Shown piece after piece: positions 34,931 to 52,465 of a stretch of 64,000 nt of DNA (the first letter of the stretch is position 1; the number at the start of each line of letters is the position of its first letter). Under the pieces are notes generated by a model. It saw only the letters and a list, made by a program, of their open reading frames with translations. It did no database searches and was not told the DNA's origin. The stretch is taken from positions 930,001 through 994,000 of the forward strand of contig CP073749.1 of assembly GCA_024398055.1 (NCBI GenBank), given 5' to 3'. The translations under genes were made by a program, and so were the position numbers. The DNA is from a bacterium SCSIO 12741. Lineage in GTDB: Bacteria; Bacteroidota; Bacteroidia; Flavobacteriales_G; Salibacteraceae.

Positions 34931-35758
34931 GTGGTGATTGTGAAAAGAGCTTTTGTACTATTTCTTTTTAGTTTCCTTGTCACCACCTTTGCCTTTGCCC
35001 AATCCCCTTACGGATATAAAGGGAAACGTACTTACCTAACAGGAGATTTGACCGGTAGCCTTCGGGTTTTGGCTCACAATGAGGAGGGAAAACTCTTCAG
35101 TCCGCCGGTAAACGTTATGCCGGAGATATCGCTTCGTCATGTCTACAACAAGCGCAATGAATTAGGCCTGAGTGTTAAACTGTACAATGACGTTGCTACC
35201 ATGACCTACAATGGAACGGCTTGGTGGAGTTATAGCGATTATTCTTTTGAGGAAGATTCGCTGGACAAACAGGCATTTCGAACTACGGATATTTCAGTGG
35301 AACACTTCTGGTACCGATCAGGCACTAATGCTCCCCTGGGGAAATACTTTGGAATAGGTATTGGCGCTGCTTTTTCGTCGTTTAATGATTCCATCCACAT
35401 CCGTAGCACAGACCCTCAATTTGGTTTTAATAATGGACCCAACTTAAGTGACACGACTTTTCAGTTAACCGGTCCAGTCGTATCTCCGATGTTGCGTTTC
35501 CACTTTGGAAACCGCCAGCTGCTGAGCAATCGAATCTTTATACAATACGGAATGTCTATTGGCCTGAATCTGGCCTACATTGGAGACGCTCTGGTGTATG
35601 ATAGCTTGATCAATTTGGTAGGCCTTGAATTGTCGAAAAATACCGATGAAACGGATCCGACCCGTTACGAGAACATGGCCAAGAAGAGCATTCAGAGCCG
35701 CGTATTCTATAAGAACCTGCTCAACTTTAAGTTGGGGGTAGGAATCCTGCTTTTTTAG
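34931..35758 (+). CDS. Outer-membrane barrel protein, PYGYKGK family, member 2
   Basis: Encodes 275 residues from a GTG at 34931 (a second GTG at 34940 gives VKRAFVLFLF and is equally plausible); no ATG is available near the signal peptide. It shares with member 1 the mature start QSPYGYKGKRTYLTGDLTGS, the motif TNAPLGKYFGIGIGAAFSSF and the C-terminal KNLLNFKLGVGILLF. It is three bases after member 1, so the tandem pair probably arose by duplication. Length and motifs are close, but long internal segments have diverged. Confidence 0.82.
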   Translation: MVIVKRAFVLFLFSFLVTTFAFAQSPYGYKGKRTYLTGDLTGSLRVLAHNEEGKLFSPPVNVMPEISLRHVYNKRNELGLSVKLYNDVATMTYNGTAWWSYSDYSFEEDSLDKQAFRTTDISVEHFWYRSGTNAPLGKYFGIGIGAAFSSFNDSIHIRSTDPQFGFNNGPNLSDTTFQLTGPVVSPMLRFHFGNRQLLSNRIFIQYGMSIGLNLAYIGDALVYDSLINLVGLELSKNTDETDPTRYENMAKKSIQSRVFYKNLLNFKLGVGILLF

Positions 35759-36407: not shown

Positions 36408-38288
36408 CTATCGACCTTGCGTCTTGTTCTGGCAAAGCATCACATGAAGCTTTTTCCCTTGTTCATCACCGAGCTCTGCTGCTCGAGCAAAGGCTTGACA
36501 AGCTCCGTCTCGATCGTTCTTTCGGCGCAATAGAATATCAGCAATACCGAGGTAGGCCTTGGCGAATTCAGGGTCTAATGAAACACTGGTATATAGATCA
36601 TTCAGGGCCTGATCATAATTCTCTCTTATGTTGTAGCAATAACCCCGCATTTGGTAAGAACGTGCACTCTCCAAGGGGTTCAATTCTATCTGTCGAGTAA
36701 AGGACCCAATGGCGGAATACGACTGACCAATGGCTACCTGAGAACACCCCAGGTAATAATAGGTAACCGAATAGTCCGGATCTAATTCAATGGCCTTTTC
36801 AGCAAATTCGATAGCCTTTTCATAACCCTGTAATTCGTAAGCCAGGGACGCCATCATACTCCAACCTTTTGCATGATCAGGATGTTGCTCTACCCAGGCT
36901 TTCAAAACCTCACCGGCTTCCTTGTGATTTTTGGTATAAATCAGGTTTTGAGCCCATGACATTGCAACAATCTCCTGGTTAGGGTTCAGTTCGTAAGCTT
37001 GTCTCAAATCGGCAGTTGCGGGTTCAAAGTTCCAATTCTCCAGGTGATGTTGCCCCCGAGATAAATACCCCTTCCAATAATCCGGGTATACTTCTATCAC
37101 CCGGGTCCATAATGTTTCGCTATTCTGCCAGATTTGATTCTGTTTCCAGGTTAACAGCGAAAGGCAAATAGTCATCATCCAAGCCAGCTTGACCAGGTCG
37201 GTACGTTGAAAACGGGGATAATTATTTTTAAACCAGGTAATACCTCTTGCCCATAGAAAGAACATTCCAACAGAAGCCAGGTAGGTATAATGATCCGCCA
37301 CAAAGGAGTTGTTGGTGGCATAGAGCTGAAGAACAAATAGAAGGTTGACCGTAAAAAATCCAAGTCCAAACAAAAGTGCCGGAAAACGTTTCCAACGCCA
37401 CATAGCCAATCCACCCATCAAAAGAGCAGCAAATGGGTAGAGCCAATAGCGCCAGGAAGATACCTCCGGATAAGGATGAATAGGCGACAAATCGAAGGGC
37501 CAAATGTGTTGCCAGGTGTAAATGATGAATCCCATTCCGGCCAGTTTCATTTTCTCCGGCCAGGAATACACGGCATCAACCGCCACCTGATCCTGGGTGC
37601 TCGTTGCCCAAACGGCAATCAATCCAAAAGTCAAAGACAGGGCGAAAAAGGGAACCTTATCCCCCACCCATTTCCAAGACCATTTACGATTCAGGAATAC
37701 ATCAATTAAGATCAAAACCAACGAGAGGGAAACCGCCATTCCCTTACTCAAGCAAGACAGGCCGAAAAACAAAATTCCCAGCCACCAATACTTGCTCTTT
37801 CCAGTGAGTACATAATCCGTGTACCGCATCAAGGCCAAAAGGTAGAACAAGGTATAAAGGAGATCTTTGCGCTCCGCAGCCCATACTACCGACTCTGCCC
37901 GTAGGGGGTGAACAGCAAACAGTGCAGCGGTAAAAAAAGCAACGGCAACCTGGCCTCGTGTCAATTTCTTAATCCAGAAAAATACCAGCGCGACATTGGC
38001 AACATGGAGCATCAAATTGGTAAAGTGAACTACTGTACTACTCAGACCAAAAATGCTTCTTTCTAAGGCGAAGGACAGATAAGTCAGTGGCATGTAATTC
38101 AACCAATACGGTTGAGTGAACATGTCTATCAAAGTAGAGAAGGAAAGTACCGTGTAAGGATTTTGGACAATCAGTTTCCGATCATCCCAATTGGTAAAAT
38201 CAAAGAAAAGCCCTGGCGAATAAAGAAGAAAGGTAAGCACAAGCAAACCCAGCAAATTGCGGTTCTTCTTCAGCCACTCCTTATTCAT
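36408..38288 (-). CDS. TMTC-like GT-C membrane protein with TPR repeats, copy 1
   Basis: Encodes 626 residues. About the first 390 residues are multi-pass membrane (roughly ten segments) with FTNWDDRKLIVQNP in the first loop and FAVHPLRAESVVWAAERKDL, motifs of the TMTC/GT-C family of dolichyl- or undecaprenyl-phosphate-sugar-using glycosyltransferases (the human TMTC1-4 proteins are O-mannosyltransferases). The last 230 residues are TPR repeats, a usual arrangement in this family, probably for substrate recognition. The donor sugar and acceptor are unknown. It overlaps the next gene by four bases and is the last gene of a minus-strand operon. Confidence 0.82.
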   Translation of the reverse strand: MNKEWLKKNRNLLGLLVLTFLLYSPGLFFDFTNWDDRKLIVQNPYTVLSFSTLIDMFTQPYWLNYMPLTYLSFALERSIFGLSSTVVHFTNLMLHVANVALVFFWIKKLTRGQVAVAFFTAALFAVHPLRAESVVWAAERKDLLYTLFYLLALMRYTDYVLTGKSKYWWLGILFFGLSCLSKGMAVSLSLVLILIDVFLNRKWSWKWVGDKVPFFALSLTFGLIAVWATSTQDQVAVDAVYSWPEKMKLAGMGFIIYTWQHIWPFDLSPIHPYPEVSSWRYWLYPFAALLMGGLAMWRWKRFPALLFGLGFFTVNLLFVLQLYATNNSFVADHYTYLASVGMFFLWARGITWFKNNYPRFQRTDLVKLAWMMTICLSLLTWKQNQIWQNSETLWTRVIEVYPDYWKGYLSRGQHHLENWNFEPATADLRQAYELNPNQEIVAMSWAQNLIYTKNHKEAGEVLKAWVEQHPDHAKGWSMMASLAYELQGYEKAIEFAEKAIELDPDYSVTYYYLGCSQVAIGQSYSAIGSFTRQIELNPLESARSYQMRGYCYNIRENYDQALNDLYTSVSLDPEFAKAYLGIADILLRRKNDRDGACQAFARAAELGDEQGKKLHVMLCQNKTQGR

Positions 38289-40729
38289 CGATTCACAACC
38301 TCCCCATTTTTATACAACACCTGCTTAACGCGTTTCCCATTAGCATTGTACTGATTGAGGACACCACTACCTGACTTGAAGGAACCTACCTCCAATGTAT
38401 CCCCAGTAAAGGAAAGAACCACAGGAACCTCCCAGAGCTTTCCTCCGCGGTAAATTCTTCGGGTCCACAGTCTACCTGGCATATCGTAGAAGAAGTCGTA
38501 AACGCCTTCCTTCACTCCATTTTGATAACTGTATTTGGCTTTTACAGCACCACCCGGGTAGTATTCAATCCAATCACCATAAGGTGTTTTGTCCTGGTGA
38601 TAACCTTCAATTCCAACTCGTCCAGTTTCAAAAAACCAACGAACCTTTCCAGCATACACCCCGTTTTCAATCACCCCTTCTTCTTCTAACCAACCTGCAC
38701 GGTTATAGCGTTTCAAAAGAGTGAGGCTATCGCCGTCACGAAATTCTCTTACCGTTTCCAGCATAATCTTACCATTGTCGTAATAGACCTTTTCCGCCGG
38801 TTCTTGTTTTTTGATTTTGACCGTTTTCTCGACACAGTACTTCTGATGCATTTCAGATGAACGCTCATTGCCCAGCTTTTTGCCTTTCATCAAGCAGGCA
38901 CAAGCACTATCCATATCATTCACCTGATTCATGTAGTAAAGGGCCATCGCTGTGTAAGTGGGTGTAAAGCTTGGATCCACATCCAAGGCCCGCTTATAGT
39001 CTTGCATGGCTTCCTTGAAGCGACCCAATTCCTGGTAAGTATTACCCCGAGCGTGGATACATTCCGTATAGACTGGCTTGATGATTAAAGCTCGATTAAA
39101 ATCGGCTAAAGCGCTGTCTTGCTTTCCTTTCTTAATCCAAACATTTCCCCGGTAGTAATAATTGATTTCATCGTCTGGCTTTTTCTCCACGGCCAGGTTC
39201 AAAAACTTAAGGGCTTCGTCGTAGTTTTTTTGGTGGTACATCAGAGCGCCAAACTTGTGTAGGTTGGTCGCATTGCTTGGGTTAATCTCCAATGCACGTT
39301 GAGCACTGCGGTTGGCACTTTCAAAATCTTTGAGGGAGCTGTGCAATAGCGCCTCCTCCATGTAGTATTGACTAAAACTTGGACGCTTGGCCTGAGCCAA
39401 CCGAATTTGGAACAAGGCATCGTCGTAGCGTTCTTGTTCTGCGTAAGTAGCAGCCAGGTTAGCGTGACTCTTATCGGATACCGGCCAGGTAGCTACTGCG
39501 TTTTCCCAAAGGGTTTCTCCATTCTGCCAAACTCGGGTTCTAATATTGGTACCAATAGCAAGAATGATCCATCCAACGGCCAACGTTCCGAAGATGAGTC
39601 GGTTTTTCAGCTTGTCGTCCAAAGCAGGCAAAGGCTTATTGATTAAGTAGTAGATTCCTTCTGCCAGTATAAAGCACAATCCGATATAGGGAATATAGGT
39701 GTATCGATCAGCGATAAAACCGGTGTTGGTGGCCAACAGCTGAAGGACCATAACGATGGTAACGCTGAAAAACGCGAATCCAAATACTATTACCCGAGTC
39801 ACTCGGTGAGTCAAGGCAACCAAGCCTAAAAGCAAGGTTACAGCCACCGGATAAAGCCAAAAGGAATAAGGAAACTCACCCGTCCCATAAACTGGATAGG
39901 GATAGAGATTGGACAGGTTAAAGGGGAAAATAAATTTCTTCAAATAAAGCAGGTAGCCCAAACTCGCCAGGGAAACACGCTCGGGCAAGTTGTACATGGC
40001 ATTCACCTGATCCTGTCCATCGGTAGCCGTGGCAAAAACGGCAATCAAACCAAAGACCATGGATAATGCAAAGAAGGGCACCTTCTCCACAATGGCCTTA
40101 GTCGTGATTTTACGCTTGTAGTAGTAATCTAAAGCGATGATGGCCAAACTCAAGGAAACGGCCATCCCCTTGGCAAAACAGGAAATGATAAAGAATCCAA
40201 GGGCAAAGAGAAGGTACTTGTTTTTCAAGCCTTGCTTCAGGTAGTTCACATAATGAATTAAAGCCAGCAAGTAAAACAAAGTATACAGCACATCCTTACG
40301 CTCTACAGCCCAACTCACCGATTCCACCCGCATGGGATTAAAGGCCCAGAAGGCTGTGGCAATTAGAGCTACCAAAGGTTTATCAGACAACTTGCGAATG
40401 AAGACATAGACCAGAATGGTATTGATCAAATGCAGCAATAGGTTATCCAGGTGAACGACAAAAGAGTTGAGTCCAAAGAAATGATGTTCCAAAGCCAGCG
40501 TGAGCAGGGTAAGCGGCTGGTAATTGAGCCAATAGGTTTGAGTAAACATGGTCACCAGGGCATCACCATCAAAATGGCGAATCAGGGGATTCCAGATAAT
40601 TAGCTTGGGGTCATCCCAGTTGGTAAAATCGCAAAACAAGGACGGGTAAAAACCGGCAAAGGTCACCAACAATATAACCAGTAGCCATAGGCGCTCGGAG
40701 CGCTGAGAAAGGGTAAATGAACGACTCAT
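38285..40729 (-). CDS. TMTC-like GT-C/TPR membrane protein with MORN-type C-terminal repeats, copy 2
   Basis: Encodes 814 residues. Residues 1-400 match the copy 1 membrane domain (FTNWDDPKLIIWNP, FWAFNPMRVESVSWAVERKD), followed by TPR repeats to about 640. The C-terminal 170 residues add MORN-type repeats of the pattern GxWxxYYxxGxxKxxxxYxxG (for example GDWIEYYPGGAVKAKYSYQN), which the paralogue downstream lacks. The same repeat type fills the separate gene at 43767-44987 of the same operon. It overlaps copy 1 by four bases, and tandem duplication with later gain or loss of the MORN part explains the pair. Confidence 0.8.
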   Translation of the reverse strand: MSRSFTLSQRSERLWLLVILLVTFAGFYPSLFCDFTNWDDPKLIIWNPLIRHFDGDALVTMFTQTYWLNYQPLTLLTLALEHHFFGLNSFVVHLDNLLLHLINTILVYVFIRKLSDKPLVALIATAFWAFNPMRVESVSWAVERKDVLYTLFYLLALIHYVNYLKQGLKNKYLLFALGFFIISCFAKGMAVSLSLAIIALDYYYKRKITTKAIVEKVPFFALSMVFGLIAVFATATDGQDQVNAMYNLPERVSLASLGYLLYLKKFIFPFNLSNLYPYPVYGTGEFPYSFWLYPVAVTLLLGLVALTHRVTRVIVFGFAFFSVTIVMVLQLLATNTGFIADRYTYIPYIGLCFILAEGIYYLINKPLPALDDKLKNRLIFGTLAVGWIILAIGTNIRTRVWQNGETLWENAVATWPVSDKSHANLAATYAEQERYDDALFQIRLAQAKRPSFSQYYMEEALLHSSLKDFESANRSAQRALEINPSNATNLHKFGALMYHQKNYDEALKFLNLAVEKKPDDEINYYYRGNVWIKKGKQDSALADFNRALIIKPVYTECIHARGNTYQELGRFKEAMQDYKRALDVDPSFTPTYTAMALYYMNQVNDMDSACACLMKGKKLGNERSSEMHQKYCVEKTVKIKKQEPAEKVYYDNGKIMLETVREFRDGDSLTLLKRYNRAGWLEEEGVIENGVYAGKVRWFFETGRVGIEGYHQDKTPYGDWIEYYPGGAVKAKYSYQNGVKEGVYDFFYDMPGRLWTRRIYRGGKLWEVPVVLSFTGDTLEVGSFKSGSGVLNQYNANGKRVKQVLYKNGEVVNR

Positions 40730-40735
40730 GACAAC

Positions 40736-42169
40736 TTACCAGAATTTAATTTTATGCATGGCATACCAACTCATTTTCAACAAAATAAAACCATGGCGGA
40801 ATCGAGAAATATTGGTATCCCCATAGATTCTTTCCTGATAGCGAATAGGCAAATCTATAATCTTCAAATTGAGTTTGTAGGCTCCAAAAATGAGGTCGAA
40901 GTCACCAAAGGGATCAAACTCCCCAAAGAACTTTCGGTTTTTGGCCAACTTGAGGTAATCGGTGCGAAACATCACTTTGGTACCGCACAAGGTATCGCGG
41001 ATAGGACGCTCCAAAATCCAGCTAAAGGCCATGCTAAAAAACTTATTCCCCATGATGTTGAGGGTTCGCATGGAGTTTTGCTCCAGGGGATAAACCATTC
41101 TTGACCCATTGATAAATTCTCCTTTACCTGAGGCCAATGCATGATAGAACTTGGGTAACTCTTCGGGCGGGACGGTTAGGTCTGCATCCAAAATCATGAG
41201 AATATCGCCCGTAGCCATTTGGTAGCCCTTGCGAACGGCATCTCCTTTTCCTTTGCCATCCTGACGAGCGATTTTTATGTCGTGGGAATCCTTGTATTTT
41301 TCGCTTATTTCCTGAATAACTTCCCAGGTATTATCGGTAGAATTTCCTTCTACAAAAATGATTTCCTGGTGTTTCCCAAACTTGGGTAGGCGTAAGATCG
41401 CATTTTCAATATTCCCTGCTTCATTTCTGGCGGGAATAACAATGGTAGAAGAATACTTCTCCTCCACATCAGACCTTGTATAAGGCTGTGGGCGAGCTAC
41501 CAGAAAACTGTTTAAACACAACCTATTAATCAAAGGCAAACGTGCCAGGTAGCGGTTGCAGATAAACGAGATCAAAGGAATATTAAAAGGAATCAACATT
41601 CCCTTGGCTTGCTTAAAAGCCTCGAAGTCGGCCAGGTAAAGTAGGTTGGCAATATCTTGGTTGGACAACCAGTTTTGAACAGGCATTTTCTTTTTGAATC
41701 CCAAAGTCTCCCCCAAAGAAGAAAGAGGCTGCCAGAAGTAGTTAAAGTAACTAATCAGGACCCGAGTTTGTGGATGAGACACCCGGTGCAGGGTTTCAAA
41801 AACATCCTGCACATTAGCAAACACACCTACCACATTGGTGAGCACGATCACGTCAAACTTCTCATCCAAATCAAGCTCATCGGCTGCCATGCAATGAAAT
41901 TCCAGATCGGGGTTTTCTTTTTTAGCCGCGTCAATCATGGCGGGAGAATAATCGATTCCCACACGCTTTGATCCTTTGAGTTGACTCAAAGTAGCTCCGG
42001 TTCCACAGCCAATTTCCAGCACCTTGTCATCCTCATGAATAAAGTAGTTACACCAATTGGTGATGGACTTCCAATAGTACTTCCTTCCCGATCGATACCG
42101 GGAATAGCGAGGAGCGAAGTCTTCGAAAAAAGAATAAAAACGGTTGCGGGCTTCCAGCTTAGGATTCAT
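40736..42169 (-). CDS. Fused SAM-methyltransferase and GT2 glycosyltransferase
   Basis: Encodes 477 residues. Residues 40-200 form a class I SAM-dependent methyltransferase (VLEIGCGTGATLSQLKG, FDVIVLTNVVGVFA). Residues 235-477 form a GT2 domain (STIVIPARNEAGNIENAI, DGKGKGDAVRKGYQMATGDI, LDADLTVPPEELPKFYHAL with the DxD metal motif, CGTKVMFR), close to polyprenyl-phosphate hexosyltransferases. No C-terminal membrane segments are obvious. A polyprenyl-phosphate-sugar product would feed the TMTC-like enzymes encoded just downstream, which is an inference from gene order. It overlaps the upstream methyltransferase gene by 11 bases. Confidence 0.85.
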   Translation of the reverse strand: MNPKLEARNRFYSFFEDFAPRYSRYRSGRKYYWKSITNWCNYFIHEDDKVLEIGCGTGATLSQLKGSKRVGIDYSPAMIDAAKKENPDLEFHCMAADELDLDEKFDVIVLTNVVGVFANVQDVFETLHRVSHPQTRVLISYFNYFWQPLSSLGETLGFKKKMPVQNWLSNQDIANLLYLADFEAFKQAKGMLIPFNIPLISFICNRYLARLPLINRLCLNSFLVARPQPYTRSDVEEKYSSTIVIPARNEAGNIENAILRLPKFGKHQEIIFVEGNSTDNTWEVIQEISEKYKDSHDIKIARQDGKGKGDAVRKGYQMATGDILMILDADLTVPPEELPKFYHALASGKGEFINGSRMVYPLEQNSMRTLNIMGNKFFSMAFSWILERPIRDTLCGTKVMFRTDYLKLAKNRKFFGEFDPFGDFDLIFGAYKLNLKIIDLPIRYQERIYGDTNISRFRHGFILLKMSWYAMHKIKFW

Positions 42170-42926
42170 GTGAGCGTACTATAGTAATCGTTTGAAACAT
42201 GGCAGTTAACGCATTTAATGGCGAAAAGATTCGTTCGGTTAATCTAACCATGGAAAATAAGGATGCTGGTAGGGATAAAGGAGTGGATAATCCACCGGAC
42301 AAAAGGTAGGCTGCCGGCGTGTGTAATTGAACCTGTGGCGCATTCCACTGAGGGTGGTTTTTAAGAAAGCTTTTACGGTCTCGTTGAAACACGATCCAAG
42401 GCAAAGCACCATTCGCATCGGAAAGGGGGCCAGCTGAAGGAAAGGTCCATTCCGCGCGATTTGGATCGAAAGGTTCGTGGTGAATGTTTTGGTAAAAAAA
42501 ACGCCCCCAAAGGGTATTGGCAGGTTCTACCATGTAAACAATTCCTCCGGGTTTAATTACCCGAGCTGCCTCTCGCAAAAACTGCTCTACATCAGGCAGG
42601 TGGTGAAATACGTTGAGCATAAACAGAGCGCTCACACTCCCCTCCTCCAAAGGCATATCTAAGGCCGAGAATGTATAATCGCAACCCAGGGGCAAAATAT
42701 CGGAAGTGGTGATTCGAGGATCTCTATCTTTTAGAAAACCGCCGCCGCTTCCAATCTCCAACCACATGCCTTCGGGGCCTTTTTCTGCAGCTTGTATGAA
42801 TCCATCGTACCACTCGGTGTACAACTTCTTGAGGAAGGGTTTCCCTAAGATGATTTCCCGGTGAACCAGGGAGGTTTCCGGATCATCTAAAGCCAGTGAT
42901 TTTTTCTTTTCAAAAAGCTCTTTCAT
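42159..42926 (-). CDS. Class I SAM-dependent methyltransferase
   Basis: Encodes 255 residues. The core motifs are MWLEIGSGGGFLKDRDPRI (motif I), PLEEGSVSALFMLNVFHHLP and AARVIKPGGIVYMVEPANT (post-I and motif III). It has the form of a sugar or small-molecule methyltransferase; the substrate is unknown. It overlaps the FkbM-type gene by four bases and the fused methyltransferase-glycosyltransferase gene by 11 bases, so all three are translationally linked. Confidence 0.86.
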   Translation of the reverse strand: MKELFEKKKSLALDDPETSLVHREIILGKPFLKKLYTEWYDGFIQAAEKGPEGMWLEIGSGGGFLKDRDPRITTSDILPLGCDYTFSALDMPLEEGSVSALFMLNVFHHLPDVEQFLREAARVIKPGGIVYMVEPANTLWGRFFYQNIHHEPFDPNRAEWTFPSAGPLSDANGALPWIVFQRDRKSFLKNHPQWNAPQVQLHTPAAYLLSGGLSTPLSLPASLFSMVRLTERIFSPLNALTAMFQTITIVRSHES

Positions 42927-43765
42927 GACTTCGGTAATGCCAAAATATCTGCGGTTCCCTGAGGTGGAATTATTTGCTCAATGGAGTTCGAGGAGATCGA
43001 TTTACCCGACTTCGCTTCAAAAAGGTCGTAGTTCAAGCCCTTAAAAAAGGTCTCAAATTGTTCGAACCGCTGCCCTCTTTCTTTTAAGAGATACAGACCA
43101 CATTCAAATACCACTGCAGGACGGTATTTTTGCAGGCCCTGCTCAAATCCTTTAAGCACTTCCCACTCATATCCGTCGGTATCAATCTTGATCAGGTCCA
43201 CCCGATCGATGGATTGTGCCTGAGCAAAATCGTCCAGGGAAATGGCTCCGACTCCCTCTGCCGACTTGGCGGTTCCCAGATGAACGGGATGCAAGTCGCC
43301 CTCTTCCTTCTCCAAAGACCAGCTTGAAAATGCCTTGAGTTCGGGATTCTCCTCAGATTGATCAGAAATAAAGGTCTGAGTCACTTCAATGCGTCCGGCC
43401 AAATCGGGATTGAGTTTCAAGTTCGTCTTTAGCTTTTGGAGCGCGTAGTCAGTGGGTTCAAAGGCCCATACTTTTCCTTGAGGAATCTGGCGGGCAAACT
43501 GGAGGGAAATGGCTCCTACATTGGCTCCCACATCCATCACCACGGCATTTTCGGGTAACTGAAACTGCTTGCTGGCAAAAATGTATTCCTGAAAATTGCC
43601 TCTCAACCAAATGGAGAAATCAATCCCTTCGCTGAGGTCCAGGGCATAACGAATACCATTTCGGGTTACTTCTTTGTTCTTACCGGTAATGGGTTTGAGC
43701 AAGCGATACATCGAACGAGCTACAGCAATTTTGAATGCCGTGCTCTGAAAATAGGAAGCCACCAT
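42923..43765 (-). CDS. FkbM-family methyltransferase
   Basis: Encodes 280 residues. FkbM-type motifs are NAVVMDVGANVGAISLQFAR (SAM-binding, about residues 66-85), KVWAFEPTDYALQKLKTNLK and IDRVDLIKIDTDGYEWEVLKG. Family members O-methylate sugars or polyketides, often in exopolysaccharide or lipid-glycan clusters. It starts one base after the MORN-repeat gene stops and overlaps the following methyltransferase by four bases. Confidence 0.88.
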   Translation of the reverse strand: MVASYFQSTAFKIAVARSMYRLLKPITGKNKEVTRNGIRYALDLSEGIDFSIWLRGNFQEYIFASKQFQLPENAVVMDVGANVGAISLQFARQIPQGKVWAFEPTDYALQKLKTNLKLNPDLAGRIEVTQTFISDQSEENPELKAFSSWSLEKEEGDLHPVHLGTAKSAEGVGAISLDDFAQAQSIDRVDLIKIDTDGYEWEVLKGFEQGLQKYRPAVVFECGLYLLKERGQRFEQFETFFKGLNYDLFEAKSGKSISSNSIEQIIPPQGTADILALPKS

Positions 43766-43766
43766 A

Positions 43767-44987
43767 TTATTGTGTTCCTCCCTTTATGGATTCTTTCAAC
43801 TGATCGTCTTCAAATCGCTGGCGACCTAATTCAACCCCATTATCGGAGTAAACTATAGCCCAGCCTTCTCTTCGGGCTTGCTTAAAATGAGTCACCGCTT
43901 GCAAGTTTCCAGAAGGATAAAAGCTTTTCCACTCCCCTTCTTTGAGGTCGTCGAGGTAAGATCCTTTTTTACGCAAGGTTCCATCCGGGTAATAAAACTC
44001 CCACTCACCCTGGGCCCATCCTTTTTTGTAAAGTCCCTTGTGCTTTAAACTGCCGTCGTGGAAATATACTTTCCATTCACCCGAGTATTCACCATCGAGG
44101 TAAATTCCTTCCGATTGAAGCTGGCCATTGGAGAACCAGGTCTCCCATCGACCCGATTTTTTTCCTTGATCGTAGACGCCTTGCCTCCAAAGTATTTGTT
44201 GACCGTTGTAGGCGGTTGTATCTTTTGTGGAACCAAAATATTTTTTGAAAATGCCTACCTGTACGTTGTCCTTGTATTGGCTTTCCACCATCAAATTACC
44301 GTTCGGATAGTAACCGCGAAAATCCCCGTCTAACATTCCATCTACATAGGTACATTCCTTTTGGAGTGCACCCGGCTTAAAATCTTTGTAATAGGATTTA
44401 AATGGCCCTGAGTATTTCCCTTCTTTTCGCGATCCCTCCGACCGGATATATCCGTTCCGGTACCAGGTCTTAAAAGGACCATGTTCGAGATCCTTTAGAA
44501 AGTACTTTTCATACAGCATAACGCCTTCATCGGAAAACCCTTGGGCCATGCCGTTGAGTTCGCCTTTGTTGTACGTGCTCATTTCCATGATCTGACCATT
44601 GGGGTAATAAGAGGTTACAACCCCATGAACCACATCCCCGATGTAGGGAATCTCCTTTTTCAAAGCTCCGTCTTCGTAGTAGATCTCAACAGGTCCTTCG
44701 AGAAAACCATCCGCAAAAAAGAGCGTTTGTCTTACTTGACCATTTTCATGGTACAAAATCCACATTCCCGTATTCTTTCCACGGTTGTAGCTTCCCTCCT
44801 GCTCCAGCTTTCCATCTGGATAGTAGCGGGAATACTTACCGTGGCGAACGTTTCCGGTATCCACCTTTTGAATTCCAAATACTTCCTTAAAGCCCTGTTT
44901 ATCAACCAGGGAATCCGTTTGAGCCTTTACTTGAAAGGCAAAAAGAAGCGCTATGATCAAACAACCAATAGGTCGAAACAATGCCAT
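43767..44987 (-). CDS. Secreted MORN-type repeat protein
   Basis: Encodes 406 residues: signal peptide (residues 1-22), a short linker, and about fourteen tandem units of roughly 23 residues with the pattern G-x-W/F-x-x-Y-[YF]-x-[DN]-G-x-L-x-x-x-x-x-Y-x-x-G (such as GEWEFYYPDGTLRKKGSY). Databases often name such proteins YwqK-family antitoxin or MORN-2; that name does not fit a secreted repeat array of this kind. MORN repeats often bind lipid or other surfaces. The TMTC-like protein at 38285-40729 has the same repeats at its C terminus. It starts five bases after the chaperone-like gene stops. Confidence 0.82.
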   Translation of the reverse strand: MALFRPIGCLIIALLFAFQVKAQTDSLVDKQGFKEVFGIQKVDTGNVRHGKYSRYYPDGKLEQEGSYNRGKNTGMWILYHENGQVRQTLFFADGFLEGPVEIYYEDGALKKEIPYIGDVVHGVVTSYYPNGQIMEMSTYNKGELNGMAQGFSDEGVMLYEKYFLKDLEHGPFKTWYRNGYIRSEGSRKEGKYSGPFKSYYKDFKPGALQKECTYVDGMLDGDFRGYYPNGNLMVESQYKDNVQVGIFKKYFGSTKDTTAYNGQQILWRQGVYDQGKKSGRWETWFSNGQLQSEGIYLDGEYSGEWKVYFHDGSLKHKGLYKKGWAQGEWEFYYPDGTLRKKGSYLDDLKEGEWKSFYPSGNLQAVTHFKQARREGWAIVYSDNGVELGRQRFEDDQLKESIKGGTQ

Positions 44988-44992
44988 CGAAT

Positions 44993-45793
44993 CTATTTTA
45001 CGGTAAGAGGAACCTGAGTTGCTTCAATAGGCTGTCGGTGCCCGTAGTTAAACAGAGCAGCCAGAGCGTAGTTGCCCGGAGAAAGTTGCGTGGGCAATAC
45101 CAGTTTTACCTTTAAAGGGTGTCCTGGATATACAGTAATCTTTTTAGGCTGATACTTTTCTTCCACCGCCGTTTCGATGTTGGCCAAGGCCAGGCTAAGC
45201 TCGCCTTCTACAATTTTGTCACCCGTATTTTCAACGGTTACTTCAAATACCCGAAACCCGTTGAATTTCTCATCCAGTTCGTGCAAGTCAAAAACCCGGG
45301 ATTTGTAGTTGTTATTGGATTTAGGAGATTGCTTCACCAAAATGGCAATTCTGGGTAACACGATCACACCCGCAGCGGTCTTGTCCTTATCAATAGGATC
45401 TACCCCTTCTTTTTCACGGGATTGAACATGAATCATTCCCCAGCGGGTTTGAAAATTGTTTTGAGGAACCGTTATAATAACGTCAAAAGTTGCTGATTCA
45501 TTAGGATTCAGATCTAAATATCCGGGGTTAATCGTCATCCAGGAAGACAAGCTTCGTTCCGAGGTACCAACCTCCATGGAGTACTTTCCTCCCTTTTCGT
45601 TTACTCCGTAGTCAGCCATTTTAAAAACGAAACGCTGAGGTTCGTTGGCATGATTGGTAATGGTAACCTTTTTGGTTTCGATATTACCAGGCTCAACCTG
45701 ATAACTCATAACAACTGGAGCAACTTCAAAATCCTGGGCGCTCAATCCTGTATATAGAAGTGCAGCGAACAAGGTGGTGAGTAGATGTTTCAT
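44993..45793 (-). CDS. PapD/DUF916-like two-domain periplasmic protein
   Basis: Encodes 266 residues from the ATG at 45793, preferred over the ATG at 45814 because it begins the signal peptide directly (MKHLLTTLFAALLYTGLSAQ). Two Ig-like domains follow: residues 20-140 (VTITNHANEPQRFVFK, LNPNESATFDVIITVP) and 145-266 (VFEVTVENTGDKIVEGEL). The pattern resembles periplasmic pilus chaperones (PapD type) and also DUF916/DUF3324 surface proteins of Gram-positive bacteria; sequence alone does not decide. It heads the minus-strand operon and diverges from the secreted-protein/barrel genes starting at 46051. Confidence 0.78.
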   Translation of the reverse strand: MKHLLTTLFAALLYTGLSAQDFEVAPVVMSYQVEPGNIETKKVTITNHANEPQRFVFKMADYGVNEKGGKYSMEVGTSERSLSSWMTINPGYLDLNPNESATFDVIITVPQNNFQTRWGMIHVQSREKEGVDPIDKDKTAAGVIVLPRIAILVKQSPKSNNNYKSRVFDLHELDEKFNGFRVFEVTVENTGDKIVEGELSLALANIETAVEEKYQPKKITVYPGHPLKVKLVLPTQLSPGNYALAALFNYGHRQPIEATQVPLTVK

Positions 45794-46050
45794 ATTGGGC
45801 GAATTAATTTTCAAAGTAGAGCTTTATACGCCGAAGTTTAATTTGGGTTTTGGTCAATTTTCTAACAAAGATGCCTTAAAAATCATAACCCCTTGCTGAC
45901 AAGGTTATTAACAACCGATTTTTAACAGTTTCATCGATCAAATTCATATGGGCAGACGAAAAAAAACTTCTTTGGTCCTAACTTTTTTGTTTGCCCCCCG
46001 TACAAGGGGTCATCAATAATCGAAATTGTTAAACTACTAAAACACAAAAA
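45794..46050. promoter_or_regulatory. Divergent intergenic region between the chaperone-like and secreted-protein operons
   Basis: 257 bases, AT-rich, with no open frame. It must carry promoters for both directions. I found no full TAnnTTTG match; TAACTTTT at 45979-45986 is a near match for the plus strand, and CTACTTTG on the minus strand has an extra base. A C-run and G-run at 45994-46009 could form a small hairpin in the 5' leader of the plus-strand gene, but the stem is short. Confidence 0.5.
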
Positions 46051-46713
46051 ATGAAAAAATTCGGAACGTTGCTTGCCGCCTTTGCTCTCTTCAGTGCCAC
46101 GGCCAATGCTCAAGCTGTTTCAGATCGTGATGTTGTACCCATTGCCGTTAACCTGAACCAGATTTTGCGTCTGGATATTCTGGATGGTGGTAACGTAGAA
46201 TTTACGTTCTCAACTATTGAGCAGTATGAAAGTGGAATTGATAATGATGATGAGTACAACACTCGTTTTTCAGTATCATCTTCCTCGGATTGGGAAGTAA
46301 GAATGGGATCAGAGGACGCGACTTTCATTGGAGTGGACGATAACACCCACACAATCGAACTAAACAATGTTGGTTACACTTTGGAAATTACAGGTAACCA
46401 CGTATTAGGAACAGAGTTGTTGACTGAAATGACAACATCTACTACTTCCTGGGACTCATCTAACGACGTTGAAGCCTTGTTGCAATACTCAACTGGTATG
46501 AACCGTCTTTTGTTCCGTCACACTGATACATCTAACGACTCAAACGCTGGCGATGAAGCAGATAACGACTTCACCATTCACTGGAGATGTGGTACTACTG
46601 AAGCTTCAAACAACGCGAACGACGATATGAATACACAGTCACTCATCGATCAGGGTAATGCCGCTGACCGTTACGTGACGAACGTGATCTTTGAGCTGAA
46701 CGCTTCTAATTAA
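46051..46713 (+). CDS. Small secreted protein, candidate fibre subunit 1
   Basis: Encodes 220 residues with a signal peptide ending ATANAQ. The mature protein is rich in Ser, Thr, Asn and Asp, mainly beta-strand, with a single late cysteine in the FTIHWRCG motif. The stretch DGGNVEFTFSTIEQYESGI and the C-terminal VTNVIFELNAS match segments of the next gene, so the two are homologous. I do not recognise a named family. The position opposite a chaperone-like gene and before a large outer-membrane barrel suggests an exported subunit; this is inference. A strong terminator follows 20 bases after the stop. Confidence 0.75.
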   Translation: MKKFGTLLAAFALFSATANAQAVSDRDVVPIAVNLNQILRLDILDGGNVEFTFSTIEQYESGIDNDDEYNTRFSVSSSSDWEVRMGSEDATFIGVDDNTHTIELNNVGYTLEITGNHVLGTELLTEMTTSTTSWDSSNDVEALLQYSTGMNRLLFRHTDTSNDSNAGDEADNDFTIHWRCGTTEASNNANDDMNTQSLIDQGNAADRYVTNVIFELNASN

Positions 46714-46733
46714 GATTCATTTGTTCATGATAT

Positions 46734-46761
46734 AAAAAATGGCCCTAGTGGCCATTTTTTT
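46734..46761 (+). terminator. Strong rho-independent terminator
   Basis: ATGGCC (46739-46744) pairs with GGCCAT (46750-46755) around a CTAGT loop, flanked by an A-run on the left and seven T bases on the right, so the stem extends into A-T pairs. It separates the first secreted-protein gene from the second and the barrel gene. A structure like this ends or attenuates transcription, which would make the first product more abundant. Confidence 0.85.
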
Positions 46762-46793
46762 GTCTTGTTACATTTGCTTAAAAGCGTTCAACA

Positions 46794-47387
46794 TTGTTCC
46801 TGAGAGTAGCATTATTATTATTATTTGCCCTTGCCGGCTGCTTGCAATCTGTCGCCCAGGAATGGAATTATGCCCGGGTCTCTATTGTTAATGGAGGTCG
46901 GGTGCCCTTTAACTTCAATTCCCTGAACAAATTGAAAAACGGGATAACCCTCACTGACTACACCGTAATCGGAATCACCATGGTTGACAGCAACCAGGTT
47001 GGTCACGATCTAACGGGATTTGAATTGCAGTTTCGTGCCTTTAATGGCGCCACGCAAATCACAGGTGAGAACCCACTCAATTTTTTACCACTCAGCGAAA
47101 TCGAAGTTGAAGCCAGCGACAACGGAATAGGAACGGCTCCCGGAGTAATCATTTTTAATGACGGACTCGGAGGACCTCAGGAATTGGATCAGGTGTTTAA
47201 GAATTGTGTAGAATACACCGAAGCGGCGGCCTTAGGCGCGCCGGTTTTTAACAGTCTGGACGCGGCATCTCACCAGATTAATATCAGTTACCGTTGTGGG
47301 GACGGCGGTAGCCTGTTGGGAATGCCTGCAGACTATTACAGTGTTGAAATTGAATTCCAGCTTATCCCTACAGGGCCTGGATTCTAA
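46794..47387 (+). CDS. Small secreted protein, candidate fibre subunit 2
   Basis: Encodes 197 residues starting with TTG at 46794; no ATG is available before the hydrophobic signal peptide (residues 1-21, ending SVAQ). It is related to the product of 46051-46713: NGGRVPFNFNSLNKLKNGI aligns with DGGNVEFTFSTIEQYESGI, INISYRCG with FTIHWRCG, and VEIEFQLIP with VIFELN near the C terminus. It also has an earlier cysteine (KNCVEY), so a disulfide is possible here but not in subunit 1. The barrel gene begins 15 bases later, indicating one transcript. Confidence 0.72.
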   Translation: MFLRVALLLLFALAGCLQSVAQEWNYARVSIVNGGRVPFNFNSLNKLKNGITLTDYTVIGITMVDSNQVGHDLTGFELQFRAFNGATQITGENPLNFLPLSEIEVEASDNGIGTAPGVIIFNDGLGGPQELDQVFKNCVEYTEAAALGAPVFNSLDAASHQINISYRCGDGGSLLGMPADYYSVEIEFQLIPTGPGF

Positions 47388-47402
47388 ATACATAAACACC
47401 CA

Positions 47403-50400
47403 GTGGGAACCATTAGGTCAATCATTTGGAGCGGCCTCTTGCTATTTAGCCTTGCCGCCCATGCCCAGGTTACCGAGCCCGATTCTACGGGTATCGCAGG
47501 AGACTCCTTGGCTTTGGATTCTCTGGGTGATGGCTTGAGCCTGCAAGAAAAACTGGATCAACTCAATCCAGATGGCGATCTGTCGATTGCCTTTATGAGA
47601 CCTAATCAATCTCACTCTCCCGATTCTTCCTACTTCAATATTGTCAAGATTGACAACAACACGGGAAGCCCCATTTCCGGAAAGGTTAAAATCATAGGCC
47701 CTGACAACTGGAACATCGTATACAGTATATCAGGATCTACGACAGTTCAGCCTGGACAACCTCTCTATATCCCCTTCCGAATATCCCTTCCCGCAGAAAC
47801 TTACGGAGGCCTGAGTTATATTCTCAACGCCTATTTTGAATTGGACGACAAGAAATATACCGGTATCGATTTCGTTCGTACCCCGGTTAAGTCCAACTGG
47901 AAATTGATCATGGACAAAGGGTTGGCTTACCAAACCAAAACGGATGAGTTTACCCCCATGCAGTTCAAGTTGAAGAACGATGGAAACACCACGGAACTTA
48001 TTCGGGTGCAGCTGGAAATCGGGAAACTTCTTAAGGTAAGCGGATTCAACAAAGACCTCAATTTCAAATACATTGAAATTCCTCCGCAAACAGACACTAC
48101 CATTACCTGGTATGTGATGCCCAACACCGACATGGACCCGGATTTGGCCGACCGCTACAAGAATAGCTGGAAAGCCACCTCGATCAATTTGGAAGTGGGC
48201 AACACCGAAAAGAAAGAATACCGAAGTTTCCGTGTAATAGCCTTGGAAAGTGAGTATACCAATGAGCGTCCTACGAGCAAATTCCCCTTAAACATCAGCG
48301 GTCGTTTTTCGAACCTGATTTTTGTCAAAAGACCTCGGCTGCGCCTGAATGTGTGGGGCACCGTTGAGCTAAAACGTCAACGAGAATTGTACTACCGCTT
48401 CTACAGTATTTGGAATTTCAATAAGCTGGATCAGTGGAACTACAACCAAAATGCCTTTTTGTACTTGGTTTACCGTTCACCAAAACTCACCTTGACTTAC
48501 GGCGATCGTTTGAATACGGGTAAGCTACACTCGGTGAATGGTCGAGGAATAAACGCTTACTACAAGCTTCTCAAAAACCACCACATTGAAGCCGGATATG
48601 TAAGCTATCCGTTAGCGCCCATTCAAGGGTTTTCGGCTTTTTACAACGGTTTTTACAAAAATGGAATCACCGCCCGTGCCGGGATTATTTTGGAGACCAA
48701 CGAGGTATTCCGCTACAATGCGCAGTCGCTGCAATTGGGTGGTAAATTGAGGGTATTGAAGTACAACCACGTATTCCTGGATGTGTTGTTCACCCAAGCG
48801 GACTTCAACAACATGAATACTTTCCCGGGAATCAACACCAGCCAATCGGATACATCCGTTCTGGGTTATGCCTACAACCTGGGCTATGCGTTTGGGTTTA
48901 GAAAATTCAGTTTCTCAATCAACAACCTAAATCACACCAACAACTACATTATGAATAGTGGCTCCAATCAAATTCGGATTCGGAGTATGTACAAGTTCAC
49001 CAAAAAGGTGCTGCTGGAGCTCAACTACAACCTCAGACGCCAAAACCAAACCCGGTATCCCCTGCGATTCTTCCGACCAACGGATTACTACAACTACGAC
49101 TATGGATTGCTAACCATTCAAATGCCTTTAGGGGACCGAACGATCAGCCGAATTGGACCTTCTTATGTGGGATCGGTGAACAATCGCTACAATACGCTCA
49201 GACAAACCGAGACCCGCAACTCCTTATACAACCCGGGTATTTATGGATTGATGCGTTACCGTCTGGATGAATTTAAATCGGTATCTCTGAATTTTAATGC
49301 CGGTGCCTATCAGGTTCAAGTAGCCTCGAACGATACTTTATTTCCCAATTGGACTTCCAACTGGGAGCCTACTTACCGTGTTGGGATAAACTATTATGGA
49401 AAGCACCTGCGAGTTTTGGCCTATTACTCCAAGAATCCAACTTTCCGTCTGGTATACGATCCATTGGCTGATGAGCCCTATGACTTATCCCCGAATCAGA
49501 TTATTCAGATTCGTCCGGCCTACCAGCGTTTCTTCTTCAACAACTTTATTAAGCTGACGACCTACCTCAACTACATGTACATGCTCCCAGCACGACGGGT
49601 GGCCACCGGCGTTTATTTACGCGGAGATTTGTACCTACCGAATTACTGGTCGTTTAACGCTGCTGCCAACTGGCAAAGCACCAGCTGGAACCGGGAAGGA
49701 AGCGGAACCGTTACCACCAATGGTTTGACCATGTTGTTTGGATTTAAGAAATCATTTGACTGGCAGCAACCTCGAATGAAGTACTACGACATCGACGTGG
49801 TATGTTTTAAAGATGTGAACGGAAATGGAATGAAGGATGAAAACGAAAACGTTTTGCCGAACATTCTGATTCACTTTGAAAGAAACACCGAGATTCCGGA
49901 TGTAGACAAGGTCTACTTTGCCAGCAAAGATCTTTGTACCAGTCCTGAGGGCATGGTGGAATACAACAAAATTGCCGAAGGAACTTATGACATTTCCATC
50001 ATCCCCATGGAAAATTTGCAGGACATTTTCCCTCGCTATGGCAACGAACAAAAAATAATTATCACCTCAAACACCACGTATTACATTCCTTTTATCGAGT
50101 CCTTCAAATCGGTTGGGAAGGTTATGGTAGAACGTGATGAGAACTTCAGTAATCACGACAACCTGGAGCTTAAAGGAATAAAGATTACCGCCACCAACAG
50201 CAACAACGAAGAGTTTGCCACCTTTACCGATGACTATGGAAACTACACCTTAACGATTCCTCAATCGGGCGTTTTCCAGGTGAAATGCCACAACACCCTG
50301 GGCCCTGATTTTGAAATTGAAAACGACGAGTACATCATCGACTTTAGTCAAAATGCGGTGTACAACATCGACTTTGTTTTCAAGGAGAAAGACCGTGGCA

Positions 50401-51593
50401 TCAATACGTCAGGAAATCAGGTATACCAGTTTAAATCATTTGGTGCCGGCAATGACGAACCCAAAGCTGAACCTGAAAAGACTCAGGATCCAGCAGCAGG
50501 CAGTGGCGGTGGTGTAAGCCCCGAACTGGAAAAACTGATCAAAGACCAGCAGGAGTTGATTCAGGCCTTGTCTGATCGATTGAAAAACTTAGAAGAAAAA
50601 ACAGCTCAACAACAGAGCGCACCGGCTCAGGTAGCTGCTCCAAATGCCTTCCAAAACGGACGTAGACAAACCGATATTCCGGACAACATCCTAAATGAGG
50701 AAACCGAATTTGATCCACAAAAACTCGGCTACCGGGTTGACCTGGGTGAGTTTACCAATGACGTTCCTGCGGACATTCTTAATAAGCTCATTCGCCTGGG
50801 ATACAAAGAAGACAATGAACCTATTGATGGCAAGGTGCGCTACCTGTCAGAAAAGTTCCGTCAACTACCAAATGCTGAAAGCTACCGGGATGATATGATT
50901 GATGAAGGATTTAAGGATCCAGATCCAAAAATTGTTGCGGACTACGACGGCAAAATCATTTCACTGGAAGAAGCTGAACGACTTAAGCGTCAGGATGAAG
51001 AAAGAAGACGTCAGCAAGCCGAACAGCGTCGTGCTCAACAGGCCCGCTCCAATGCCACTCCTGCCCAGGCAACACAAGCTCCTGCAACAACGAATAACCA
51101 AACCACCGATGGTGAATCGCTGGAATCATTGGCCGACATGAGCGACTACGAAGACTTGAATAACTTGATTGACGAGTTAATCGATCAAAATGAAGGACCA
51201 CAGGAAATTGACAATCGCCAGGAATTTGATCAGGTAGATGACTTGATCGATGACTTGTTATTGAAAACCAATCCTGATGCACCTAACAACGGCATTGAAT
51301 CCATAGATAAGAAGAAGATCTCCTATCGCCTTGAGCTGGGTGTATTTGAAGCTAACTTGAACCCGGATCAATTAAAGAAATTGGAAGAACTGGGTTACGT
51401 TTCAAAAGGTGCATCCAAAAACGATCCACCAGTAGCCTTCTTGTCCAATACCTTCTCTGATATCAGCCTTGCTGAGAAGTATCAAAAAGAATTGGAAGCA
51501 GCCGGATTTGGTAAACCAAGAATCGTTGGAGATTATGATGGTGTATTGATTACGGTAAAAGAAGCCCAGATGCTTATCAACGCAGGTAATTAG
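47403..51593 (+). CDS. Usher-like outer-membrane barrel with Ig-like, SdrD-B and two SPOR-like domains
   Basis: Encodes 1396 residues from a GTG at 47403. Signal peptide (to AAHAQ); Ig-like domains (about 50-290); a large barrel (about 291-784) with LTYGDRLNTG and NGRGINAYYK near residue 366, reminiscent of the GD-x-x-T...RG motif of pilus ushers; an SdrD-B-like module (about 798, FKDVNGNGMKDENENVLPN); a carboxypeptidase-regulatory-like module (about 920); coiled coil (about 1038-1075); and two SPOR-like domains (1108-1190 and 1306-1396), each starting Y-R-[VL]-[DE]-L-G-x-F. SPOR domains bind peptidoglycan, so the protein may link outer membrane and cell wall. The whole architecture is not one I recognise. 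The usher reading is inference. Confidence 0.75.
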   Translation: MGTIRSIIWSGLLLFSLAAHAQVTEPDSTGIAGDSLALDSLGDGLSLQEKLDQLNPDGDLSIAFMRPNQSHSPDSSYFNIVKIDNNTGSPISGKVKIIGPDNWNIVYSISGSTTVQPGQPLYIPFRISLPAETYGGLSYILNAYFELDDKKYTGIDFVRTPVKSNWKLIMDKGLAYQTKTDEFTPMQFKLKNDGNTTELIRVQLEIGKLLKVSGFNKDLNFKYIEIPPQTDTTITWYVMPNTDMDPDLADRYKNSWKATSINLEVGNTEKKEYRSFRVIALESEYTNERPTSKFPLNISGRFSNLIFVKRPRLRLNVWGTVELKRQRELYYRFYSIWNFNKLDQWNYNQNAFLYLVYRSPKLTLTYGDRLNTGKLHSVNGRGINAYYKLLKNHHIEAGYVSYPLAPIQGFSAFYNGFYKNGITARAGIILETNEVFRYNAQSLQLGGKLRVLKYNHVFLDVLFTQADFNNMNTFPGINTSQSDTSVLGYAYNLGYAFGFRKFSFSINNLNHTNNYIMNSGSNQIRIRSMYKFTKKVLLELNYNLRRQNQTRYPLRFFRPTDYYNYDYGLLTIQMPLGDRTISRIGPSYVGSVNNRYNTLRQTETRNSLYNPGIYGLMRYRLDEFKSVSLNFNAGAYQVQVASNDTLFPNWTSNWEPTYRVGINYYGKHLRVLAYYSKNPTFRLVYDPLADEPYDLSPNQIIQIRPAYQRFFFNNFIKLTTYLNYMYMLPARRVATGVYLRGDLYLPNYWSFNAAANWQSTSWNREGSGTVTTNGLTMLFGFKKSFDWQQPRMKYYDIDVVCFKDVNGNGMKDENENVLPNILIHFERNTEIPDVDKVYFASKDLCTSPEGMVEYNKIAEGTYDISIIPMENLQDIFPRYGNEQKIIITSNTTYYIPFIESFKSVGKVMVERDENFSNHDNLELKGIKITATNSNNEEFATFTDDYGNYTLTIPQSGVFQVKCHNTLGPDFEIENDEYIIDFSQNAVYNIDFVFKEKDRGINTSGNQVYQFKSFGAGNDEPKAEPEKTQDPAAGSGGGVSPELEKLIKDQQELIQALSDRLKNLEEKTAQQQSAPAQVAAPNAFQNGRRQTDIPDNILNEETEFDPQKLGYRVDLGEFTNDVPADILNKLIRLGYKEDNEPIDGKVRYLSEKFRQLPNAESYRDDMIDEGFKDPDPKIVADYDGKIISLEEAERLKRQDEERRRQQAEQRRAQQARSNATPAQATQAPATTNNQTTDGESLESLADMSDYEDLNNLIDELIDQNEGPQEIDNRQEFDQVDDLIDDLLLKTNPDAPNNGIESIDKKKISYRLELGVFEANLNPDQLKKLEELGYVSKGASKNDPPVAFLSNTFSDISLAEKYQKELEAAGFGKPRIVGDYDGVLITVKEAQMLINAGN

Positions 51594-51679: not shown

Positions 51680-52465
51680 TTGAAAACGAACCTACTTCTC
51701 TTAGCCCTACTAACCCTGGGCTGTTTATACCTGCATGGTCAGAATCCTTACGGATATCAGGGACATCGCCTGTATCTTCAGTACAATTTTGGCGCATCTG
51801 TAAACCTGATTGGAAACAAACCCGAAAATCCAACTGCCCTACCCTATCTAAACCGATTTCACGATTTGTCGCTCAACTATTGCCTCAATCGCCATTGGGT
51901 GGCAGGCATCCACGGCATGTATAGCCGAGATGTGGCCGACATCGAATACACCAGTGCCCATATTTTTGACTCAAGAAAAACTTATACCCCTTTTCGAACT
52001 ACCGAGGTAGGCATTCAATTTTACCGATTCATCAATGATTTAAATGCGCCACTTGGCACCTATTTGAATGTAGGCTTGGGCATGGCGATTACTGAATTGG
52101 ACGGAACAGTAAGAGCAAGCGTCATCACCGAAGCGGCCAATTGGTGGAACAGTACTCATCAGGAGACCGTTTTTTCCTACACCCAAACTCGTCCTTACCT
52201 CTCTCCCATGCTGCGCCTTGGAATAGGCACCCAGCATTTGATTGGGAACCACCTTATGATTAACGTAGCCGGTCAACTAGGGCTCAACCTGGCCTGGATT
52301 CACGAAAGACGAGTGGCCACTGATATATTCTCTGATGACAACATCGATAGTTCAGAAATGACATCAAACGAGGATTTAGAATCATTAACCAAAAGCGCTA
52401 CTCAATCTCGTATTTCCTTTAAAAACTTCTACCATTTCCGACTGGGCATAGGGTATTTGTTCTAA
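51680..52465 (+). CDS. Outer-membrane barrel protein, PYGYKGK family, member 3
   Basis: Encodes 261 residues from TTG at 51680 (no ATG precedes the signal peptide). Mature start QNPYGYQGHRLYLQYNFGAS, motif LNAPLGTYLNVGLGMAITEL, and C-terminal SFKNFYHFRLGIGYLF are shared with the products at 34082-34927 and 34931-35758. It lies 86 bases after the usher-like gene in the same orientation. Function unknown; membership in the same family as two genes on the other side of the fibre-like cluster is the main clue. Confidence 0.8.
   Translation: MKTNLLLLALLTLGCLYLHGQNPYGYQGHRLYLQYNFGASVNLIGNKPENPTALPYLNRFHDLSLNYCLNRHWVAGIHGMYSRDVADIEYTSAHIFDSRKTYTPFRTTEVGIQFYRFINDLNAPLGTYLNVGLGMAITELDGTVRASVITEAANWWNSTHQETVFSYTQTRPYLSPMLRLGIGTQHLIGNHLMINVAGQLGLNLAWIHERRVATDIFSDDNIDSSEMTSNEDLESLTKSATQSRISFKNFYHFRLGIGYLF

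Follow-up and report, generated by a model that had tools for sequence, protein, structure and literature searches.

A probable chaperone/usher-like pilus cluster of Bacteroidota whose major subunit is related to the TLP-1a/TLP-1b fibril protomer

Which surface structure might be built by the products of the genes at positions 36408–51593 of the 64,000-nucleotide stretch analysed here (positions 930,001 to 994,000 of contig CP073749.1, assembly GCA_024398055.1, from the Bacteroidota bacterium SCSIO 12741; hereafter the window)? A preliminary description had read these genes, a minus-strand run of seven diverging from genes for two secreted proteins and a large barrel protein, as a chaperone/usher-like surface-fibre system coupled to glycan-modifying enzymes. 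All open reading frames of that description were found where it had placed them, and the packing of the seven minus-strand genes (gaps of 6, 1 and 5 bases; overlaps of 4, 11 and 4 bases) agreed with it. The surface-fibre system is well supported, its subunit having been traced to the TLP-1a/TLP-1b protomer family, and we consider it probable that the locus encodes a Bacteroidota system for pilus assembly of the chaperone/usher-like kind, which exports a donor-strand-exchange pilus of the TLP-1 type. Directly established are the gene content, the conserved linkage, the homology of the subunit with the fibril, the homology of the candidate chaperone with WxLIP proteins and the predicted barrel.

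The pilin candidates and the TLP-1a/TLP-1b fibrils

The two secreted proteins are here labelled SecA (46051–46713, plus strand, 220 residues; proposed major pilin) and SecB (46794–47387, plus strand; a second pilin-like subunit); the labels are unrelated to SecA and SecB of the Sec translocase. Their relatedness, claimed in the preliminary description, was borne out by hhalign (99.4%, E 2e-21). No credible Pfam match was obtained for SecA. A search of the Protein Data Bank (PDB) with the SecA family profile showed matches to 9ikk (E 6e-20) and 9ikj (E 8e-19), 16-chain cryo-electron microscopy (cryo-EM) structures titled TLP-1b and TLP-1a, respectively, whose proteins are named TLP-2 and TLP-1. 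A type-II member of the SecA family matched the fibril protomer over its full length with E 4e-49, and a profile of type I members only, the window's own subfamily, matched it with E 0.003.

The window SecA and the 1396-residue barrel protein were each modelled with AlphaFold2 as a single chain. For the SecA model (predicted local distance difference test score, pLDDT, 84), Foldseek placed the TLP-1b and TLP-1a entries at ranks 1–2. VIA-align against the TLP-1 fold gave a Z of 9.5 and a root-mean-square deviation of 3.8 over 172 aligned residues, with the next rows at about 6; the next-best fold matches included many donor-strand pilins (CfaB/CfaE, Csu, CS20, FimG, FimA, PapA) and also TasA. 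Profile and fold agree in relating SecA to the TLP-1a/TLP-1b fibril protomer.

In the reverse search, the fibril sequence had relatives in 30 of the 395 Bacteroidia genomes searched, the best with 50% identity. SecA and the barrel were present in all 17 fetched neighbourhoods of the top genomic matches. The SecB profile matched 16 of the 17 (L172 has an unmatched frame of 225 residues in SecB's place), and the two-immunoglobulin (Ig) protein described below was seen in 16 (at L160 the contig ends where the gene would be expected). Because all 17 neighbourhoods carry the cluster, the fibril protomer's nearest genomic relatives in this search are encoded in it, and the cluster is probably the maker of TLP-1-type fibrils.

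TLP-1a and TLP-1b are probably the CryoSeek fibrils of the Tsinghua Lotus Pond (Wang et al. 2024), reportedly joined by donor-strand exchange; this equation of 9ikj/9ikk with them is based on the entry titles. According to a 2026 review, such pond-water filaments could not be identified (PMC12967142). No maker of TLP-1 fibres was assigned in the literature searched, which leaves out the CryoSeek authors' own paper. A fibre solved by cryo-EM directly from pond water thus gains a candidate genetic address in a conserved cluster of Bacteroidia, which points to the bacteria that make TLP-1-type fibres and to how they do so, and which makes export, capping and glycosylation of such fibres testable.

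SecA carries an N-terminal extension (residues 22–37; 46114–46161, plus strand), AVxDRxVIPVAVxLNQ, which precedes the first Ig strand, is hydrophobic at every second residue and is conserved across 55 SecA sequences. In the monomer model these residues do not form a strand. The fold ranking and the conserved extension give SecA the incomplete-Ig pilin fold with N-terminal extension of classical pilins, and on this basis the extension is proposed to be a donor strand and SecA to polymerise by donor-strand exchange. Most SecB proteins have a short N terminus without this extension. In donor-strand systems, a subunit that accepts a strand and donates none initiates the fibre. SecB is therefore likely to be the tip or first subunit, by analogy with such systems; its homology to SecA and its gene position, between SecA and the barrel in most loci, are consistent with this role.

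Two SecA copies each were seen at L033 and L109 and could be alternative major pilins. Weak SecA matches in proteins of about 1040 residues from another family were set aside as chance, those proteins matching no core profile.

The WxLIP-like protein, the barrel and the proposed assembly

The first minus-strand gene (44993–45793) encodes a secreted protein of 266 residues with two Ig-like domains, the proposed periplasmic chaperone. It has a signal peptide, and its sequence ends without a hydrophobic C-terminal transmembrane helix. Pfam matched it to fn3_5 (7e-6) and to WxLIP_PGBD (DUF916; 9e-4). The profile of its family matched EfmWxLIP1 in the PDB across both domains with E 2.5e-6, compared to 0.27 for a PapD-type chaperone, and hhalign aligned the family with WxLIP proteins of Firmicutes (lactic acid bacteria) over 216 columns (96.9%, E 1.9e-10). 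At a threshold of E 0.1 the window protein had no PapD_N (PF00345) match, and the host genome had none either; among 45 relatives, 3 showed weak PapD_N matches, the best at 5e-4. Of the label 'PapD/DUF916-like' used in the preliminary description, the DUF916 (WxLIP) half thus stands by sequence and the PapD half does not. In sequence, the two-Ig protein is a homologue of the WxLIP proteins (DUF916-DUF3324) encoded in Gram-positive WxL clusters. In published AlphaFold2 models, a hairpin strand of WxLIP is predicted to insert into its WxL partner (PMC10599100). By analogy, chaperone action is the role proposed for the window protein, and the little-understood WxL/WxLIP proteins on Gram-positive surfaces would thereby be tied to fibre assembly through a possible chaperone-like function.

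The same homology could be taken to mean that the locus is a diderm version of a WxL cluster, in which the WxLIP-like protein and the two secreted proteins form an adhesive complex bound to the surface or to peptidoglycan, with no pilus and with the barrel as an anchor. The homology does span both Ig domains, one WxLIP with two secreted proteins is the arrangement of the commonest WxL cluster type (one WxLIP and two WxL proteins; PMC10599100), and a 'gW-x-L' register is common to the weak alignments. However, neither SecA nor SecB gave a significant profile match to WxL domains (hhalign 5% and 1%), PF13731 had no match in the host genome, and SecA matches a filament protomer instead. We regard this explanation as improbable.

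As an observation apart, a plasmid record labelled Klebsiella pneumoniae (CP069367.1, 101782–102462) encodes a protein 73% identical to an Enterococcus faecium WxLIP, which is probably foreign sequence in the assembly.

The protein of 1396 residues (47403–51593, plus strand) has a signal peptide and was described from the start as a barrel. Structure prediction agreed (mean pLDDT 86): the model contains about 26 strands between residues 296 and 785, within a barrel domain of residues 293–790 (48279–49772) that was delimited from the strand list of the model and from the range aligned by VIA-align. The modelled order is two N-terminal Ig-like domains (about residues 60–290), the barrel, two C-terminal beta-domains (794–910 and 927–995) and a variable extension. 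By hhalign, the N-terminal half is similar to the chaperone family (90.7%, E 1e-6). FimD ushers occupied the top rows of a Foldseek search with the model, and VIA-align gave Z 19.5 for MtrB, 14.5 for PapC and 14.0 for FimD. No match to the Usher family (PF00577) was found in the barrel protein or in the host genome, and a sequence-profile search of the barrel protein against the PDB showed nothing significant.

A barrel fold by itself does not prove an usher. What makes usher-like export the best reading is the order of domains together with the chaperone-like N-terminal half and the constant location behind the pilin genes. The protein might instead be an anchor of porin or receptor type for a fibre secreted by another route, for example the type IX secretion system (T9SS). 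MtrB as the best VIA-align match, TonB-dependent barrels that score like ushers and the missing plug would all fit such an anchor. Set against these are the conserved adjacency of barrel and subunit genes, the usher order formed by the chaperone-like N-terminal and two C-terminal domains, and the first place of FimD in Foldseek; furthermore, no T9SS C-terminal domain is visible in SecA, since SecA stops right after its last Ig strand. An anchor of this kind is in our view unlikely.

The C-terminal extension (50433–51590, plus strand) varies among lineages and holds two copies of a domain of about 95 residues. Many barrel homologues end near residue 1000, so the extension is best seen as a lineage addition. 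The repeated domain (residues 1101–1196) also ends a protein of about 700 residues in most relatives (L026 and L031, for example). The SPOR-like domains that the preliminary description had assigned by eye were left unsupported by Pfam, in that neither copy matched SPOR (PF05036) even at E 10; what the C-terminal half does hold is the repeated domain. The 'cell-wall-anchored' character once given to the fibre had leaned on these unconfirmed SPOR-like domains. At L042, L048 and L123 the barrel gene lies in two overlapping or adjacent frames, through either sequencing error or decay.

Under the pilus reading, SecA, SecB and the WxLIP-like protein would reach the periplasm via Sec signal peptides, and the WxLIP-like two-Ig protein would hold each incomplete Ig-fold subunit, probably lending it a strand as PapD does. 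The N-terminal Ig domains of the barrel would receive the chaperone–subunit complexes, and the subunits would leave through the pore. Outside the cell, the N-terminal segment of one SecA would fill the groove of another by donor-strand exchange, with SecB starting the fibre or occupying its tip. The product would be a fibre of the TLP-1a/TLP-1b type.

Several points weigh against this reading. The window SecA is only 18% identical to TLP-1b in the structural alignment, and one genus has a SecB with a different N-terminal stretch. The barrel model lacks the inserted plug domain of ushers, TM-scores to FimD in the Foldseek search were low (0.20–0.33), and the usher likeness is unspecific, MtrB and TonB-dependent receptors equalling or exceeding ushers in VIA-align. 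At L035, L036 and L042, the sequence available around the cluster contains no chaperone gene. Strand donation and gating are inferred from models of single chains, and the whole case is computational.

Conservation of the cluster and its glycan-modifying genes

Conservation was examined in two surveys. In the first, 60 related genomes were searched with the large barrel protein and neighbourhoods of up to 20 kb were inspected; in the second, named genomes were scanned with the SecA profile, which brought in another 63 loci, these being from Flavobacteriales, Bacteroidales and relatives. Dereplication left 64 loci, mostly from metagenome assemblies, of which 61 were testable for adjacency of the barrel and Sec genes. 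The results showed a core block of the two-Ig secreted protein, SecA, SecB and an outer-membrane barrel of about 1000 residues, often joined by a MORN protein. The two Sec genes lie immediately upstream of the barrel gene in 56 of the 61 testable loci. The two-Ig protein was seen in 47 of the 64, some contigs stopping before its expected place. Of 395 Bacteroidia genomes sampled, 48 (about 12%) have SecA, as do 22 of the 42 genomes from the small order to which the window belongs; credible matches in a broader sample of the phylum came from the same class, Bacteroidia.

The only widely recurrent neighbour outside the core is the MORN protein (61 loci before dereplication). In the window, this secreted MORN_2-repeat protein (43767–44987, minus strand; Pfam 5e-46) adjoins the chaperone gene. 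In 16 loci of one genus (L037–L041, L043, L048 and relatives), a lipoprotein-like protein of about 111 residues (LNQTGC) follows the MORN gene. In one type-II branch (L156–L160 and L164), a protein of 516–564 residues adjoins the barrel gene and is a possible extra subunit or adhesin.

The remaining minus-strand genes encode the glycan-modifying enzymes. Pfam and NCBIfam backed the labels of the preliminary description for these enzymes and for the MORN_2 repeats. An FkbM-family methyltransferase (42923–43765; PF05050 8e-18, TIGR01444 4e-29) and a class I methyltransferase (42159–42926; PF08241 1e-11) are assigned to a facultative glycan module. They are followed by a fusion of a methyltransferase with a family 2 glycosyltransferase (GT2) (40736–42169; PF13489/PF00535, and TIGR04182 at 3e-29, below its cut-off), the GT2 part of which comes closest to polyprenyl-phosphate sugar synthases (AglJ-like). 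Two TMTC-like glycosyltransferases of the GT-C fold with tetratricopeptide repeats (TPRs) complete the run. The product of 38285–40729 carries TPRs and C-terminal, weakly matching MORN repeats and is 38% identical to that of 36408–38288, which matched PMT_2 at 4.9e-6, above the cut-off. The host genome contains three such genes, two of them in the window.

GT-C neighbours were defined by a membrane-domain profile, and seven first-pass candidates (L043, L045, L053, L094, L116, L122 and L123) were dropped because they had matched through TPRs only. Five of the 64 dereplicated loci (the window, L033, L044, L111 and L170) have true GT-C genes within the cluster or next to it, compared to 0.43 loci expected by chance at a density of 175 genes in 199 Mb of relatives (P about 9e-5; post hoc); the four loci other than the window give about 0.001 (likewise post hoc). 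Full-length relatives of the 38285–40729 protein occur at L033 and L111. The methyltransferase–GT2 fusion is found at two pilus loci, the window and L111, and the L111 locus combines a fusion 61% identical to that of the window with an FkbM protein and three GT-Cs, followed by SecA, SecB and the barrel.

Do these enzymes act on the fibre? They may form an independent operon that adjoins the pilus genes by chance and does not glycosylate the fibre, an explanation that is compatible with the pilus reading and that we give an even chance. Most core loci have no glycan genes; of 60 relatives, 8 further genomes carry the fusion (one of them as a fragment), several without a SecA match; and in genome G052 the methyltransferase, the fusion and a GT-C are grouped on one contig and the pilus genes lie on another. 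Speaking for a connection are the post hoc excess of GT-C genes, the independent combination at L111 and, in the window, the single packed run that the glycan genes share with the chaperone gene. Since these genes are absent from most loci and the enzymes are also encoded apart from the pilus, they fall outside the core machine and are a facultative addition. The preliminary description had staked its shared-system reading on co-occurrence in related genomes, which holds for the core but extends to the glycan genes only in part; its coupling to glycan enzymes accordingly applies to the window locus and, above chance, to a few other loci. Human TMTCs modify cadherins, the EC domains of which are Ig-like (PMC13123603, PMC11292533). 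O-glycosylation of an Ig-like pilin is therefore reasonable, and by this analogy glycosylation of the pilin is plausible: at the window locus the TMTC-like GT-Cs, the GT2 and the methyltransferases may add methylated O-glycans to the subunits.

A frame at 56993–64000, near the pilus genes, runs past the window end and encodes at least 2336 residues of a very large surface protein with a signal peptide, many repeated Ig-like units (xPNGGExWxxGxxxxIxW) and then PKD-like units. Three homologous outer-membrane-type proteins of about 270 residues with a PYGYKGKxLFL start (34082–34927, 34931–35758 and 51680–52465) lie on either side of the pilus/glycan block and do not recur beside the cluster in other genomes.

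Comparison with known systems

The closest comparison is with TLP-1a/TLP-1b (9ikj, 9ikk). The fold of SecA is the same and its sequence is detectably homologous, and type-II members up to 50% identical to the protomer lie within the same cluster; the window SecA, in contrast, is a distant type I member, and the fibrils came from pond water.

Classical chaperone-usher pili (FimA/C/D, PapA/C/D and the archaic Csu) share with the cluster a two-Ig periplasmic protein, a donor-strand-type pilin fold, the N-terminal extension of the main pilin, and a barrel with N- and C-terminal periplasmic domains. Unlike in those systems, the genome here has no PF00345 or PF00577 match and the candidate chaperone is WxLIP-like by sequence. 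Whereas classical ushers have 24 strands and an inserted plug, the barrel modelled here has about 26 strands, no plug and two N-terminal Ig domains. The WxL/WxLIP clusters of Lactobacillales have a homologous WxLIP protein (DUF916 and DUF3324) and two secreted partners; the cluster differs from them in that its partners are not detectably WxL, its candidate chaperone lacks a transmembrane helix and an outer-membrane barrel is added. The human O-mannosyltransferases TMTC1–4 resemble the window GT-Cs in their GT-C membrane part and TPRs, whereas the window proteins are bacterial and some are fused to MORN repeats.

The type V (FimA/Mfa1) fimbriae of Porphyromonas gingivalis are also pili of Bacteroidota and were set apart by description only. 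To our knowledge, their pilins are lipoproteins matured by Rgp proteases, with no dedicated usher or chaperone. A tentative proposal, which we hold with somewhat less than even confidence, is that the cluster represents a separate class of Bacteroidota pilus, distinct from both the classical chaperone-usher and the type V pili. In this class, a WxLIP-type chaperone and a plug-less gate of about 26 strands with chaperone-like domains of its own would build donor-strand fibres of the TLP-1 type, decorated by TMTC-like enzymes in some lineages, and the WxL clusters of Gram-positive bacteria would be its monoderm relatives.

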